From NCBI GenBank assembly GCA_947447825.1, contig CANFLL010000030.1, positions 1 through 42,505 on the forward strand: a stretch of 42,505 nucleotides of DNA, in the 5' to 3' direction. The stretch is from Chitinophagaceae bacterium. Lineage in GTDB: Bacteria; Bacteroidota; Bacteroidia; Chitinophagales; Chitinophagaceae. The notes below the pieces were generated by a model, which did no database searches, was not told the DNA's origin, and saw only the letters and a program-made list of their open reading frames with translations. Made by a program: the position numbers and the translations under genes. Each line of letters begins with the position of its first letter. Position 1 is the stretch's first letter. This document shows, in pieces, positions 11,609 to 42,505 of the stretch.

Positions 11609-12739
11609 TTAAACTATATCCTTCAACACTTTAATTACAGCATCTATTTCTTTATAAGTATTATGTTTACTAAAAGAAAAACGAATGGTATCCTGATTTG
11701 GATTATTATTTATTGCTTGCATCACATGACTTCCTTGATTAGCACCACTTGTACAAGCACTTCCTCCACTGGCACATATATGATTGATATCTAAATTGTA
11801 AATTAACATTTCACTTTTTTCTGAACTAGGAATGTTTACACTCAAAACAGAGTATAAACTACTTCCAGCTACATCACCATTAAAGTTTACATGTTTCAAA
11901 TGCTTTCGAAGTTGCTCCATCATGTAAAGTTTAATACTTTTAATATATGTGCTATCTGCCAAATAGTTTTCGCTTGCAATCTCAAGTGCTTTTGCAAAAC
12001 CTACGATGCCTGCAACATTTTCTGTTCCTGCTCGCATATTACGTTCTTGAGCTCCTCCATAAATTAATGGTTTTATTTTCACATTTTCATTTATATAAAT
12101 TATTCCGACTCCTTTAGGACCATGAAATTTATGGGCAGAACCTGTAATAAAATGTACTGGTGTATTACGTAAGTTAATAGGATAATGACCAAGCGTCTGA
12201 ACGGTGTCTGCAAAATATATTGCATTGTTTTGTTTGCATAAGTCTCCAATTGCATAGATGTCAGACAAATTGCCAATTTCGTTATTAGCATGCATCAGCG
12301 CAACAAGGCACTTTTCGGGTATACTAGACAAAAGATGCGCAAGATTTTCTAAATTGATATGACCATTTGGCAATAGACTAACATTAGATACGGTAATCTT
12401 CTCCGTTTTTTGAACATACTCAGCAGCATGAAGGGTTGCATGGTGTTCAATTGGTGAGGTAATGATGTGCTTACAATTCAAATCTCTAACGGCAGCTAAA
12501 ATTGCCATACTCGTACTTTCTGTTCCTCCAGAGGTAAAAAATATTTCAGAGGGGTGCGCATTTAACAATTTAGCAATCAATTTACGTGAATTCTCTATTG
12601 CTAATCTACTTTCCCTTCCATAACTATAAATTGAAGAAGGATTGCCATAATGCGTAGTAAGATAGGGCATCATCGCATCTAATACGTCCTTATCTAAAGA
12701 AGTAGTTGCTGCATTATCTAGATAAATCCTTTCTTTCAT
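11609..12739 (-). CDS. Cysteine desulfurase (NifS/IscS-type, class V aminotransferase fold)
   Basis: A pyridoxal-phosphate enzyme that removes sulfur from L-cysteine as an enzyme-bound persulfide for Fe-S cluster and thio-cofactor synthesis. The 376-residue protein has the group I landmarks: N-terminal IYLDNAATT, TSGGTEST (about 69-76), the ITSPIEHHA histidine motif (about 93-101), MHANNEIG (149-156), the Schiff-base lysine in SAHKFHGPKG (Lys204), RAGTENV (236-242) and the mobile catalytic cysteine loop SGGSACTSG (Cys329). Class I (NifS/IscS) rather than SufS is favoured by this loop. No IscU/SufU scaffold is adjacent. It lies downstream of the phosphoglucosamine mutase gene on the same strand, separated by a 21-bp tandem repeat. 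Confidence 0.9.
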   Translation of the reverse strand: MKERIYLDNAATTSLDKDVLDAMMPYLTTHYGNPSSIYSYGRESRLAIENSRKLIAKLLNAHPSEIFFTSGGTESTSMAILAAVRDLNCKHIITSPIEHHATLHAAEYVQKTEKITVSNVSLLPNGHINLENLAHLLSSIPEKCLVALMHANNEIGNLSDIYAIGDLCKQNNAIYFADTVQTLGHYPINLRNTPVHFITGSAHKFHGPKGVGIIYINENVKIKPLIYGGAQERNMRAGTENVAGIVGFAKALEIASENYLADSTYIKSIKLYMMEQLRKHLKHVNFNGDVAGSSLYSVLSVNIPSSEKSEMLIYNLDINHICASGGSACTSGANQGSHVMQAINNNPNQDTIRFSFSKHNTYKEIDAVIKVLKDIV

Positions 12740-12755
12740 AGAAAATAAGTAAAGA

Positions 12756-12839
12756 GTTGAACGTTAAAAGTCAAAAGTTGAGCGTGAAAAGTCAAAAGTT
12801 GAGCGTGAAAAGTCAAAAGTTGAGCGTGAAAAGTAGAAG
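12756..12839. repeat. Four tandem copies of a 21-bp unit
   Basis: Units start at 12756, 12777, 12798 and 12819. The core unit is GTTGAGCGTGAAAAGTCAAA plus A; units 2 and 3 are identical, unit 1 has two changes and unit 4 diverges at its end. In one plus-strand frame the period gives a heptad (VKSQKLS), a spurious-looking frame that runs into the antisense of the next gene. The words belong to the AAAGT(C/T)AAAAGTTGA family found in several gaps of this window. Confidence 0.9.
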
Positions 12840-12863
12840 AAAGTCAAGAGTCTACTTTCTTCT
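12835..12863 (-). terminator. Hairpin after the phosphoglucosamine mutase stop
   Basis: AGAAGAAAGT (12835-12844) and ACTTTCTTCT (12854-12863) form a perfect 10-bp stem with a 9-nt loop, 6 bp beyond the minus-strand stop at 12870. It is followed on that strand by ACTTTTC rather than a true T-run. It overlaps the last 21-bp repeat unit by 5 bp. Confidence 0.4.
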
Positions 12864-15268: not shown

Positions 15269-15755
15269 TTTCTAAGATGCTAAATATTTTCGGATGAAAG
15301 TAAATGATCGGCTATTTGTAAGCCGATTCAAGAACTTCTCGAAATTCTAGTTTGTTTCCACTAAAGAGTCTTATCTCAATTTTCTCGAAGAAAAAACAAA
15401 AGACACCAAGGTTTAATGTTGGCTTTTATAATTAATTAACAAACGACTTTTGAATTCCTATTAGAAACATCCTCTCATTATTGTCAATTGGTTTATTTTA
15501 ATTTTAAACATGCTTCCAATAAAATGTTATTGGGAGCATGGCCACACAAAAAATTGCTCCAGGAAACATGATTTGGTTTATTCTTCATTTAAATCTAATT
15601 CCATTATTTTACACAAAACCTAACATATATAATATTCAATGTTACACATTGGGGGCATATAGTTATATTCCTTTTGCCTTGTGAATTTTTAGTAAAACTT
15701 CGAAATAGAAACATTCACTGTTACATCAACTTATTCTTGAACACTTTTATTGACA
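15269..15755. other. 487-bp gene-free region
   Basis: No coding frame is supported. It contains a 7-bp-stem hairpin at 15307-15327 (ATCGGCT/AGCCGAT) behind the methyltransferase, AT-rich filler, and the palindrome at 15509-15540 listed separately. Confidence 0.6.
15509..15569. repeat. GGAAGCAT/ATGCTTCC palindrome related to the 41-bp array after ureC
   Basis: CATGCTTCCAATAA (15509-15522) and TTATTGGGAGCATG (15527-15540) form a 14-bp stem with one mismatch and a 4-nt loop. The same words, ATGCTTCC followed about 20 bp later by GTTATTGGGAGCAT, recur in the array at 42110-42505. A further GGAAACAT lies at 15562-15569. It looks like a solitary, off-phase member of that family. Confidence 0.6.
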
Positions 15756-23708: not shown

Positions 23709-23929
23709 TAGGCAAAAATAGGGGCAAAGCAAAGACGGTGTTGGTTTTGAGACGAATGATTGTGAACATTAGAAATCCATTCAAAAAAAATTAAGCAATT
23801 TTCGCTACAATACAGTATCTCATTGAATTATAATTTTCAACTTCCTTAAAGGTACTCCCGTTTGTGGGGTAAGGAATCTTAAATATGCACACTACTGATT
23901 TGAAGTTTCGGTGCAGTTTCTGAATCATT

Positions 23930-24118
23930 GAGTGATGTCACTTTACTTTCGAGTGACTTCACTTTACTTTCGAGTGACGTCACTTTACTTTTGAGTGACG
24001 TCACTTTACTTTCGAGTGATGTCACTTTACTTTCGAGTGACGTCACTTTACTTTCGAGTGACGTCACTTTACTTTCAAGTGACGTCACTTTACTTTCAAG
24101 TGACGTCACTTTACTTAT
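23930..24118. repeat. Nine-unit 21-bp minisatellite built on a GTGACGTCAC palindrome
   Basis: Nine units of exactly 21 bp start at 23930 and every 21 bases up to 24098, reading GAGTGACGTCACTTTACTTT plus C with few changes: T for C in units 1 and 5, a GACTTC core in unit 2, a T end in unit 3, AAG for GAG in units 8 and 9. Most units contain the 10-bp palindrome GTGACGTCAC, extended to 14 bp (AAGTGACGTCACTT) in units 8 and 9. Because 21 is divisible by three, the array stays open on both strands; the minus frame gives the heptad SKVTSLE with Val and Leu in coiled-coil a and d positions. Confidence 0.95.
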
Positions 24119-24155
24119 CAGTAACCGATAAAAGTAGTAAAATGACAAGGGCATA

Positions 24156-27823: not shown

Positions 27824-27962
27824 AAGTGGAAAGTTGAAAATTGAAAGTGGAAATTATATACTGAGAAATAATTTTAAAACATTAAGTTCTACGTCTAACT
27901 CTTAACTCTCAACTTTCGGCTTTCAACTTTAAACTTTAAACTTACGACCTTCCACTTTCAAC
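27824..27962. repeat. Inverted array of AAAGTTGAAA-like words between kinase and waaA
   Basis: The left part (27824-27851) runs AAGTGGAAAGTTGAAA, then ATTGAAAGTGGAAA. The right part (27907-27962) repeats the complement in short blocks: CAACTTTC, TTTCAACTTT, AAACTTTAAA, TTCCACTTTCAAC. The two parts can fold onto each other in several registers. The words match the family at 12.75 kb and 33.5 kb. Confidence 0.7.
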
Positions 27963-40367: not shown

Positions 40368-42083
40368 ATGAATATCAACAGAATAAAATATGCGAATATG
40401 TACGGCCCAACTACGGGCGATAAGGTTCGTTTGGGCGATACTGAACTGTTTATAGAAATAGAAAAAGACTATACAGTTTACGGTGACGAAGCCAAGTTTG
40501 GCGGCGGCAAAACTATTCGTGATGGTATGGCGCAGTCCGCAACCGCCACCCGTAAGGAAGGCGTTTTGGATTTTGTGATTACCAGCGTGATGATTATCGA
40601 TCATTGGGGAATTGTAAAGGCCGATATTGGCATTAAGGACGGAAAGATTGTAGGCATTGGCAAGGCGGGAAATCCTGATACTATGGAGGGTATTACCCCA
40701 AATATGGTCATCGGTGCATCAACAGAAGTGCATGGTGGTGCGGGTTTGATAGCCACGGCTGGCGGCATAGATACCCACATACATTTTATATGTCCCCAAC
40801 AAATTGAACATGCTTTGTTCAGTGGCATTACTACCATGATTGGTGGCGGAACTGGCCCTGCCGATGGAACAAACGCTACCACTGTTACGCCCGGTGCATG
40901 GAATATCCAGAAGATGTTGGAAGCGGCAGAAGCTTTCCCTATGAACCTTGGTTTCTTTGGCAAAGGCAATTGTGCCAGCTTGGATCCGTTGGAAGAACAG
41001 ATAGAAGCAGGGGCTTTAGGATTGAAAATACATGAGGATTGGGGCAGTACTACCGCCGTAATTGATGCATCGCTGCAAATGGCAGATAAGCACGATATTC
41101 AGATTGCCATACACACAGATACTTTAAATGAGGGCGGCTTTTTAGAGGATACCATCAACGCCATCAATGGTCGCGTTATCCATACTTTCCATACGGAAGG
41201 TGCGGGTGGTGGTCATGCGCCAGACATTATAAAGGCGGCTATGTATCCAAATGTGTTGCCTTCGTCCACCAATCCTACGCGTCCTTACACGGTAAACACC
41301 ATTGATGAGCACCTCGATATGTTGATGGTTTGTCATCATTTGGATAAGTCAGTTCCCGAAGATGTGTCTTTTGCCGACTCCCGCATCCGTCCAGAAACCA
41401 TTGCCGCAGAAGATATATTACACGATATGGGCGTATTCAGCATGATGAGTAGCGACTCGCAAGCAATGGGACGTGTGAGTGAGGTTATTACGCGCACTTG
41501 GCAAACGGCGCATAAAATGAAAGTGCAAAGAGGAGGATTGGAGCAGGATGCCCAGAATGAGAACGATAACTTTAGGGTAAAAAGATATGTTTCAAAATAC
41601 ACCATCAACCCAGCCATTACACACGGTATCTCGGAATATGTAGGCTCGTTGGAGAGTGGTAAGATGGCCGATCTTGTATTGTGGAAACCCTCCATGTTTG
41701 GGGTGAAACCAGAGATTATCATTAAAGGCGGAATGATTATAGCCGCACGTATGGGCGACCCAAATGCGTCTATCCCTACGCCGCAGCCTGTTATCTATCG
41801 CAATATGTTTGGGGCTTTTGGCAAGGCATTGCATAAAACCTGTGCCACATTCGTATCAAAACTTTCTCTAGAAAAGAATATTGTACAGCAATATGGTTTG
41901 CAGAAACTCGTATTGCCCGTAAAGAACTGTCGCAATATTTCTAAAAAAGACCTGATACACAATGATGCCACACCGCAGATAGACGTTAACCCAGAAAACT
42001 ACGAAGTAAAGGTGGATGGCGTGGTAATTACTTGCGAACCATTGGGGGTATTGCCATTGGCTCAACGGTATTTCTTGTTTTAG
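40368..42083 (+). CDS. ureC: Urease subunit alpha (catalytic, nickel-binding)
   Basis: The catalytic urease subunit, an amidohydrolase-fold protein with two nickel ions. All active-site residues are visible in the 571-residue product: GGIDTHIHF with His137 and His139, GLKIHEDWG with Lys220 (carbamylated bridge), [10 protein letters not shown] with His249, [14 protein letters not shown] with His275, the flap [13 protein letters not shown] with Cys322 and catalytic His323, and SSDSQAMGR with Asp363. Length is normal. Nickel incorporation needs UreDEFG, which are not in the window; the sequence ends about 420 bp after ureC, so they may lie to the right. Codons are richer in GC than the local average, as expected for a conserved, highly expressed gene. 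Confidence 0.97.
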
Positions 42084-42109
42084 ATAGGAATGGAGTATTT
42101 TATTTCACT

Positions 42110-42505
42110 TGAAGCATTCTAATTTGACGAATACACCAAATGATGTTATTGGGAGCATCTTATTTTGGGGAATGCTTCCTTTTACGTTAATGGAAGCATA
42201 TTACAATGCGGCATACACCAAAGAGCGTTACTGGAAGCATGTTTTAAATCAGAAAACAACAAATAGCGTTACTGAAAGCATGTTTCAAATAAATATGCTC
42301 CAATGAGTGTTAATGGAAGCATTCCTCAAAATAAGATGCTTCCAAAAATGCAAAAGGGTGTGTATTTCACTCAAAAATGCTTCCAGCAACGTTATTTTGT
42401 GTATTCTGCAATGGGAAATACACTAAACGATGTTAATGGAGGCATATTTCATTGAGATATACACCAAACAACATTAATGTAGGCATGTTTCAATTATAAA
42501 TATAC
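42110..42505. repeat. Phased, strongly diverged 41-bp tandem array after ureC, running off the window
   Basis: Ten units begin at 42110, 42151, 42192, 42233, 42274, 42315, 42356, 42397, 42438 and 42479, exactly 41 bp apart with no insertion or deletion. Offsets 1-8 read GGAAGCAT or a near variant in eight units. Offsets 22-31 read either ATACACCAAA (units 1, 3, 8 and 9, with 4 close to it) or ATGCTTCC-type (units 2, 5, 6 and 7). Offsets 35-41 read CGTTAAT or close to it in nine. Middle bases are AT-rich and variable. The last unit is cut by the window edge. No spacer logic, gene or terminator is seen. Confidence 0.88.

Follow-up and report, generated by a model that had tools for sequence, protein, structure and literature searches.

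Ordinary minisatellites (VNTRs) have free periods, and iteron and partition-site arrays consist of helically phased repeats that are bound by a cognate protein encoded alongside. In type III toxin-antitoxin systems (ToxIN, CptIN), tandem repeats of about 35-45 nt lie upstream of a single protein gene. An account of REP/BIME elements (PMC2817692) describes extragenic, imperfectly palindromic repeats of alternating orientation and regular spacing, whose clusters adjoin a gene and have related clusters elsewhere in the genome, and whose copy number correlates with that gene. REP/RAYT is the nearest analogue of the arrays reported here, gene-linked and dispersed palindromic arrays being found in both. 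The open-access literature, which excludes most subscription journals and preprints, yielded no description of the class of arrays that we encountered at the end of contig C30 of a Chitinophagaceae bacterium; the window, as used below, is this whole stretch of 42,505 bp.

An exact 41-bp period had been proposed from the letters alone for the array that closes the window, and this was confirmed. The array comprises 9.7 visible units and is cut by the contig end, so that its visible length is partial. Self-match at lag 41 was 0.631 over positions 42110-42505, compared to a maximum of 0.388 in 1000 dinucleotide shuffles (lags 10-149), and 41 was the best lag in all six 164-bp blocks when lags 38-44 were tried. 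Neighbouring units mismatched at 131 of 355 positions and the phase never shifted. A weight matrix, trained partly on these same units, matched at 42110, 42151 and onward to 42438 in steps of 41 bp. A covariance-model match at 42076-42150 (E 4.9e-7) extended the array weakly to 42076, and its lag-based extent started at 42074; the array itself begins at most about 30 bp past the stop codon of ureC (Table 1).

Each unit holds two arms in inverted orientation at distances of 21 and 20 bp, which corresponds to two DNA turns. The arms are of two types, A (GGAAGCAT-like) and B (TTGGTGTAT-like), and each arm of a unit may be either. Among 38 units from four arrays, the left/right pairs were AB (12), AA (7), BA (6) and BB (1), with 12 unclassified; the two block types of the sequence-only reading do exist, but the regular alternation that it described does not. 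The consensus of the 12-bp linker is also palindromic, making the entire unit dyad-symmetric, and the array consequently reads nearly alike on both strands. The inverted relationship previously noticed between two stretches 164 bp apart in the array was upheld (Table 1). With a symmetrised matrix built on 18 units, specificity was about 26 bits per unit.

Conserved RNA stems are expected to covary, and independent DNA half-sites need not. Across 36 dyads from 18 arrays, pairing of arms within units was not above pairing between units (difference -0.10 to +0.05, with both signs), and this absence of covariation favours a row of DNA sites over RNA hairpins. Conservation as a hairpin or cruciform was rejected, the arms being uncoupled, and the earlier suggestion of a structured RNA downstream of urease is disfavoured on the same ground. 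RNA folding of the window array was far better than that of shuffled sequences (z -10.9 on the plus strand, z -7.5 on the minus strand), strength on both strands that follows from the inverted repeats, which must fold in this way. Rfam gave no match in the window array, and identity with an RNA family was rejected on that result. CRISPR was also rejected, as the units are contiguous and themselves degenerate, and spacers are absent.

Table 1. Coordinates of the repeat arrays and of the adjoining urease gene in the 42,505-bp window.
Feature	Position	Strand	Remarks
Window array	42110..42505		arm 1-8, 13-bp loop 9-21, inverted arm 22-29, palindromic 12-bp linker 30-41
Weak leading half-units	42076..42109		begin at the ureC stop codon or slightly ahead of it
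Unit with two A-type arms	42151..42179	+	near-perfect inverted copy of 42315-42343
Inverted partner of 42151-42179	42315..42343	-	27/29 bases match the reverse complement
ureC (urease alpha subunit)	40368..42083	+	ORF; Pfam Urease_alpha, Amidohydro_1
Degenerate relic, same array family, 2-3 units	15448..15572		steps of 41 then 43 bp
Phased 21-bp array, 12.1 units, palindromic core GTGACGTCAC	23893..24147		TRF; lag scan; consensus
21-bp array, heptad substructure	12722..12859		between two minus-strand genes; TRF periods 21 and 7; lag scan

The degenerate relic scored 15.8, 16.8 and 9.2 with the weight matrix (BLAST E 8.8e-5; model E 9.3e-11), its best lag being other than 41. An ORF of 80 aa or more, possibly spurious, runs across the 21-bp array with the palindromic core; this array clusters with one at L175 13950-14188, and contig C10 carries a related array. 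The heptad-structured array clusters with three heptad-like arrays. Degenerate 7-bp tandem repeats were observed at 27846-27893 of the window, at L175 6579-6760, L177 4992-5117 and L219 1231-1389, and at the 3' ends of genes of the 316-aa family (see below) in L088-L104. These runs often come directly after a stop codon and their unit can hold TGA, TAA or TAG; since 7 is not divisible by 3, a run with a stop triplet would place stops in all three frames. Inside ureC, the minus strand of 40518-40812 matched Rfam 5_ureB_sRNA (E 1.8e-19), a match that may merely reflect conserved urease coding sequence.

We searched this genome and its relatives with a profile of the unit, as had been suggested for the 41-mer, and recovered other copies in both. 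Related arrays that keep the 41-bp phase were located on contigs C8 and C16 here and on C45 in a sister species. A dyad-symmetric weight matrix was trained on 18 units, taken from the window and C16; in the two untrained arrays (C8 and the sister-species C45) the matrix found exact 41-bp steps, with one unit of the C8 array, at 1723 of L003, scoring below the cut. From the four arrays, 33 stretches of 82 bp on both strands aligned without a gap. Clustered by sequence, the window array and those of C16 and C21 group with the gene-linked C8 and C3 arrays, so that dispersed copies accompany gene-linked ones here as in REP/RAYT. Labelled gene families were never mixed within a cluster, and 92 of the 154 arrays remained unclustered; the procedure kept only arrays with a period in a preset list, which makes it unsuited to period statistics. 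A dyad-symmetric consensus was clear (z at least 2.5) in 14 of 26 gene-linked arrays and had z under 2.5 in 12. A private minisatellite, the fallback of the sequence-only reading, was excluded, given same-family copies at several loci of the genome and in its relatives, and quantised periods.

The C8 array sits upstream of a gene of an unnamed 316-aa family. Within the genus, 11 of 13 genomes carry this family (1-13 matches each). Across the taxonomic family it was found in 17 of 294 genomes and 9 of 101 genera, and a sample of 395 genomes from the phylum added three others (best E 2.3e-15). Of 18 named loci, 17 belong to Chitinophagaceae MAGs and one to an uncultured bacterium. A subset of the matches, 53 distinct full-length copies with sequence, was used for counting, and 49 of them have at least 300 bp upstream. 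An array of 40-42 bp (or doubled) lay at most 1 kb upstream of 47 of these 49 testable genes, the exceptions being L113 (0.53 at lag 42, cut 0.58) and L098. Seven gene fragments were left out of the count (three with an array, two without, two untestable), and a broken copy on C1 was without an array. In a chosen set of 40 loci, 37 of 38 had an upstream array. Other genes of this genome had an array within 800 bp in 39 of 320 cases, a comparison that sets 1-kb regions from many genomes against 800-bp regions from one genome and ignores kinship. Downstream of the 53 genes, two reached the upstream cut (lag 40-42 or 80-84), both beside 7-bp repeats. The 37 scored arrays (lags 40-43) had a best lag of 41 (18 arrays) or 42 (19), 5-17 units (median 7) and a median distance to the gene of 170 bp; their edges were degenerate, but the outer value is set by the threshold, so that we read no growth of arrays from the leader side into it. 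L098 was the sole full-length copy with a quite different upstream period, 118 bp (self-match 0.94).

Arrays of the same kind lie upstream of DUF6261 (PF19775), a catalogued family of unknown function. We found 27 DUF6261 loci, two of which (L297, L299) gave no ORF; at the 25 scorable loci in the genus, 20 had an upstream array (scores 0.65-0.98), three had one downstream and two had none, one of these with only 153 bp upstream. The genes with a downstream array, of 41 bp, were L286, L292 and L295 (G011). Kinship between the two families was undetected (hhalign probability 0.3%), and common descent is thus unsupported by hhalign. The 316-aa profile weakly matches 260-283-aa ORFs of another family of the class (G481 C2 349940, C1 1863842 and C1 461200), which keeps the possibility alive and perhaps reflects a remote link to DUF6261-sized proteins. 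A second unnamed family, of 217-220 aa and without a Pfam match, was seen at L227 15465-16115 and L198 4999-5658, both loci examined lying 18-48 bp from 21-bp arrays. A 354-aa gene also adjoins a 42-bp array.

When 442.5 kb of this genome were scanned agnostically for self-match at lags 7-120, with a cut of 60% or more over 120 bp, 37 tandem arrays emerged, or 8.4 per 100 kb. Their periods were 21 (16 arrays), 42 (8), 41 (4), 7 (3), and 62, 63, 82, 83, 12 and 51 bp (one each); 32 of the 37 (21, 41, 42, 62, 63, 82 and 83 bp) fall close to a multiple of two helical turns. ORFs of 80 aa or more, possibly spurious, overlap six of these 32, and heptad substructure was present in some 21-bp arrays. 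Ten further regions of the genome, partly chosen for cassettes, held 16 arrays, 11 of which fit, the others having periods of 7 (twice), 48, 72 and 108. At L228 15450-16440 we observed a homogeneous 108-bp repeat, perhaps coding and of collagen-like type. Periods near two-turn multiples were also found in G004 (7 of 9), G011 (4 of 7), G032 (6 of 6), G006 (6 of 9) and G007 (3 of 3), and in 3 of 9 arrays, counting one of period 20, in G012, which is richer in 7-bp repeats. Array density was 6-9 per 100 kb in G004, G006, G011 and G032, several stretches of which were chosen on contigs with the 316-aa gene family. Among control genomes of the taxonomic family, G016, G030, G034 and G050 gave one array, of period 103, in 380 kb, and twelve others gave none in 205 kb; fifteen of the controls (G050 left out of this statement) had no match to the 316-aa family. 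G005 and G008 belong to the same genus and are without the 316-aa family, yet have DUF6261 arrays; the scan returned no array in 105 kb of G005 and two short 41-bp arrays in 98 kb of G008. At the sampled density, each genome of this Chitinophagaceae genus may carry some hundreds of arrays.

Comparison of gene-linked copies outlined a unit of array, leader and gene. The copies on G000 C28 and G004 C1 shared 92.7% identity over 1724 bp, a stretch that runs from some 30 bp beyond the called edge of the array to the stop codon, and their flanks and neighbouring ORFs differed; neighbouring ORFs also differed for L069/L089 and L058/L088. In other pairs similarity ended at most about 80 bp from the stop codon and its 5' end was variable, lying inside the array region for pairs with diverged arrays and some hundreds of bp outside the array for L092/L094, L093/L094 and L103/L104; L095/L096 had about 1.7 kb of upstream flank in common. 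The leader, about 180 bp between a 41-bp-type array and the start codon, was well conserved. One intergenic slot, beside a conserved gene that we take from its sequence to be DUF1501, was occupied by a 316-aa gene in G004 (C1), a DUF6261 gene in G000 (C26) and a 354-aa gene in G003 (C459), each with an array of the class, and by a 21-bp array in G006 (C127); five genomes had no array there and one was cut by a contig end. Downstream of ureC, the 41-bp arrays of G000 and G003 differ from each other, G007 shows weak periodicity at multiples of 21 (0.59 at lag 105) and five others have none (G005 was unscorable). Upstream of trpS, a 41-bp array was present in G000 only, among twelve loci.

Six gene-less arrays were examined for remnants of the leader. 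The C21 array is followed by leader positions 10-165, with no family ORF found alongside, and L042 has kept 65 bp of leader, which marks some gene-less arrays as cassette relics. The remaining four (L002, L031, L046 and L136) had no leader remnant, and arrays of this kind may have arrived alone. We infer from these sequence comparisons that the units of array, leader and gene are mobile cassettes; the putative mobility draws mainly on one copy pair and one intergenic slot. The best reading of the window copy is a solo array, or a cassette with its gene past the contig end.

The sequence-only reading had also suggested that spacing itself is constrained, and proposed a test for depletion of indels relative to substitutions. 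Neighbouring units of the four arrays differed at 544 of 1423 positions compared with no phase shift within an array, and this, along with the periods near two-turn multiples, makes a constraint on spacing likely. The claim stands in a weaker form, however, as the relic contains a 43-bp step, units of 41 and of 42 bp occur together in some other arrays (lag 83) and orthologues show gaps. Over eight orthologous cassette pairs, the leaders had 20 gaps against 164 substitutions and the array regions 42 gaps against 639 substitutions, one gap only being a whole 42-bp unit (L095/L096). The array regions overran the array edges and repeats align ambiguously, which makes the gap count unclean and nevertheless bars the claim that the arrays are free of indels. 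In-phase exchange between units could also purge phase shifts.

The 316-aa protein had no Pfam match above the cut-off and no NCBIfam match, and its PHROGs matches were at E 0.1 or worse. PADLOC gave no match for five proteins, the 316-aa protein included, and a known defence system was rejected on that result. An AlphaFold2 model from 18 sequences (pLDDT 83, pTM 0.49) is helical in its N-terminal part and has a beta domain at the C-terminus, with no recognisable DNA-binding domain. A PDB fold search gave no match at E below 0.001, and ToxN was absent among the 50 matches listed. Seven predicted viral proteins fell below E 0.001, the best of them a tail protein (7.3e-6); TM-scores by query length were at most 0.24, so that these matches concern parts of the model at most. 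The pI was at least 7.9 in 19 of 20 members of the family, which is no more than consistent with nucleic-acid binding. An origin in phages or plasmids was rejected, as the 316-aa family had no relative in viral contigs (pattern-based search) or phages and one DUF6261 query found none in plasmids.

The best explanation for these results, which we put forward tentatively and would place somewhat below an even chance, is a helically phased array of degenerate dyad-symmetric sites, candidate protein sites, within a mobile array-plus-gene cassette. It would be one of a class whose spacings are two-turn (21 bp), four-turn (41/42 bp) and higher. A dimeric or oligomeric DNA-binding protein would engage the inverted half-sites from a single side of the helix, and such contact would tolerate point changes better than changes in spacing. 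The likeliest binder would be the protein that the cassette itself encodes, here that of the 316-aa family, whose C8 copy carries a matching array; such binding would determine cassette-gene expression and reach solo arrays, of which the window copy may be one, in trans. The sites would lie upstream of a putative promoter within the leader, a presumed match to the Bacteroidota consensus. The main rival to the cassette product as binder is a host factor common to the arrays, for instance a nucleoid protein or a recombination machine, that would read phase or shape and not the motif. The arrays would then be generic handles (for silencing, insulation or as mobility ends for unrelated cargo) and the pairing of motif and gene would reflect linkage alone. 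This rival gains from array-bearing gene families without detectable kinship, the 316-aa and DUF6261 families and apparently the 217-220-aa and 354-aa genes all bearing arrays of the same spacing class, and from very different motifs having periods in common. Within a motif family, however, the arms are specific to the extent given above, which pure shape recognition would not need, and we regard a host factor as a serious though rather unlikely answer.

Functionless satellites, with a period set by two-turn slippage or recombination and kept by in-phase exchange, would account for the gain or loss of whole units, seen in the single 42-bp gap of L095 versus L096 and common to VNTRs, as well as for higher-order 82-bp repeats and the small gaps in orthologous arrays. 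We nonetheless judge them improbable: such arrays are near-absent in the stretches sampled from 15 genomes of the taxonomic family that lack the 316-aa family, the upstream association with one gene family is close to complete, and 544 substitutions without a phase shift contrast with the gap rate of the leaders. The concentration of periods near two-turn multiples and the company of particular genes likewise set these arrays apart from VNTRs. Repeat RNAs that form a ribonucleoprotein with the downstream protein, or neutralise it in the manner of type III toxin-antitoxin systems, would suit the layout, in which repeat units of about 40 nt precede one gene in tandem; that layout is all that the two have in common. 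The strong folding would fit as well. Folding on both strands is nevertheless common to any inverted-repeat array, the arms within a unit do not covary, and no terminator-like site was found in the one cassette scanned (C8). The 316-aa protein, with its empty Pfam, NCBIfam and PADLOC searches, matched no toxin family and gave no sign of a ToxN-fold endoribonuclease; the units here are degenerate and dyad-symmetric, and many arrays have no such gene alongside. A repeat RNA is accordingly very improbable.

The arrays were also compared with the remaining described systems. They differ from REP/RAYT in that the partner genes are not Y1 (HUH) transposases, the 316-aa protein being without a Pfam match; in that identity stops near the stop codon with no second flanking repeat, tandem repeats having been sought; and in their strict phasing, with arms that lack compensatory changes. 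Arrays driven by a RAYT were rejected: 12 of the genus's 13 genomes have Y1_Tnp genes, whether or not the 316-aa family is present, and the one RAYT-like locus readable here, on C125 (a weak Y1_Tnp match only), had no array beside it. Y1_Tnp matches were observed at most 1 kb from a cassette at G007 C21 27980-28324 and G011 C62 1976-2317. Iteron and partition-site arrays have the phasing in common with the present arrays, which differ in their many chromosomal copies and several gene families; no replication or partition gene was noticed alongside.

Taken together, we consider it possible, with confidence a little under one half, that these arrays represent an undescribed class of mobile cassette, in which a phased array would be joined to one gene drawn from interchangeable unrelated families, with motif families linked to gene families, solo arrays acted on in trans, and spacing carrying more of the information than sequence. 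If true, this would be a new mobile or regulatory unit in the genus, in which helical phase is kept while the sequence drifts. It would also provide the first functional context for DUF6261 and several unnamed gene families, highlighting a natural system for studying how proteins read DNA spacing.
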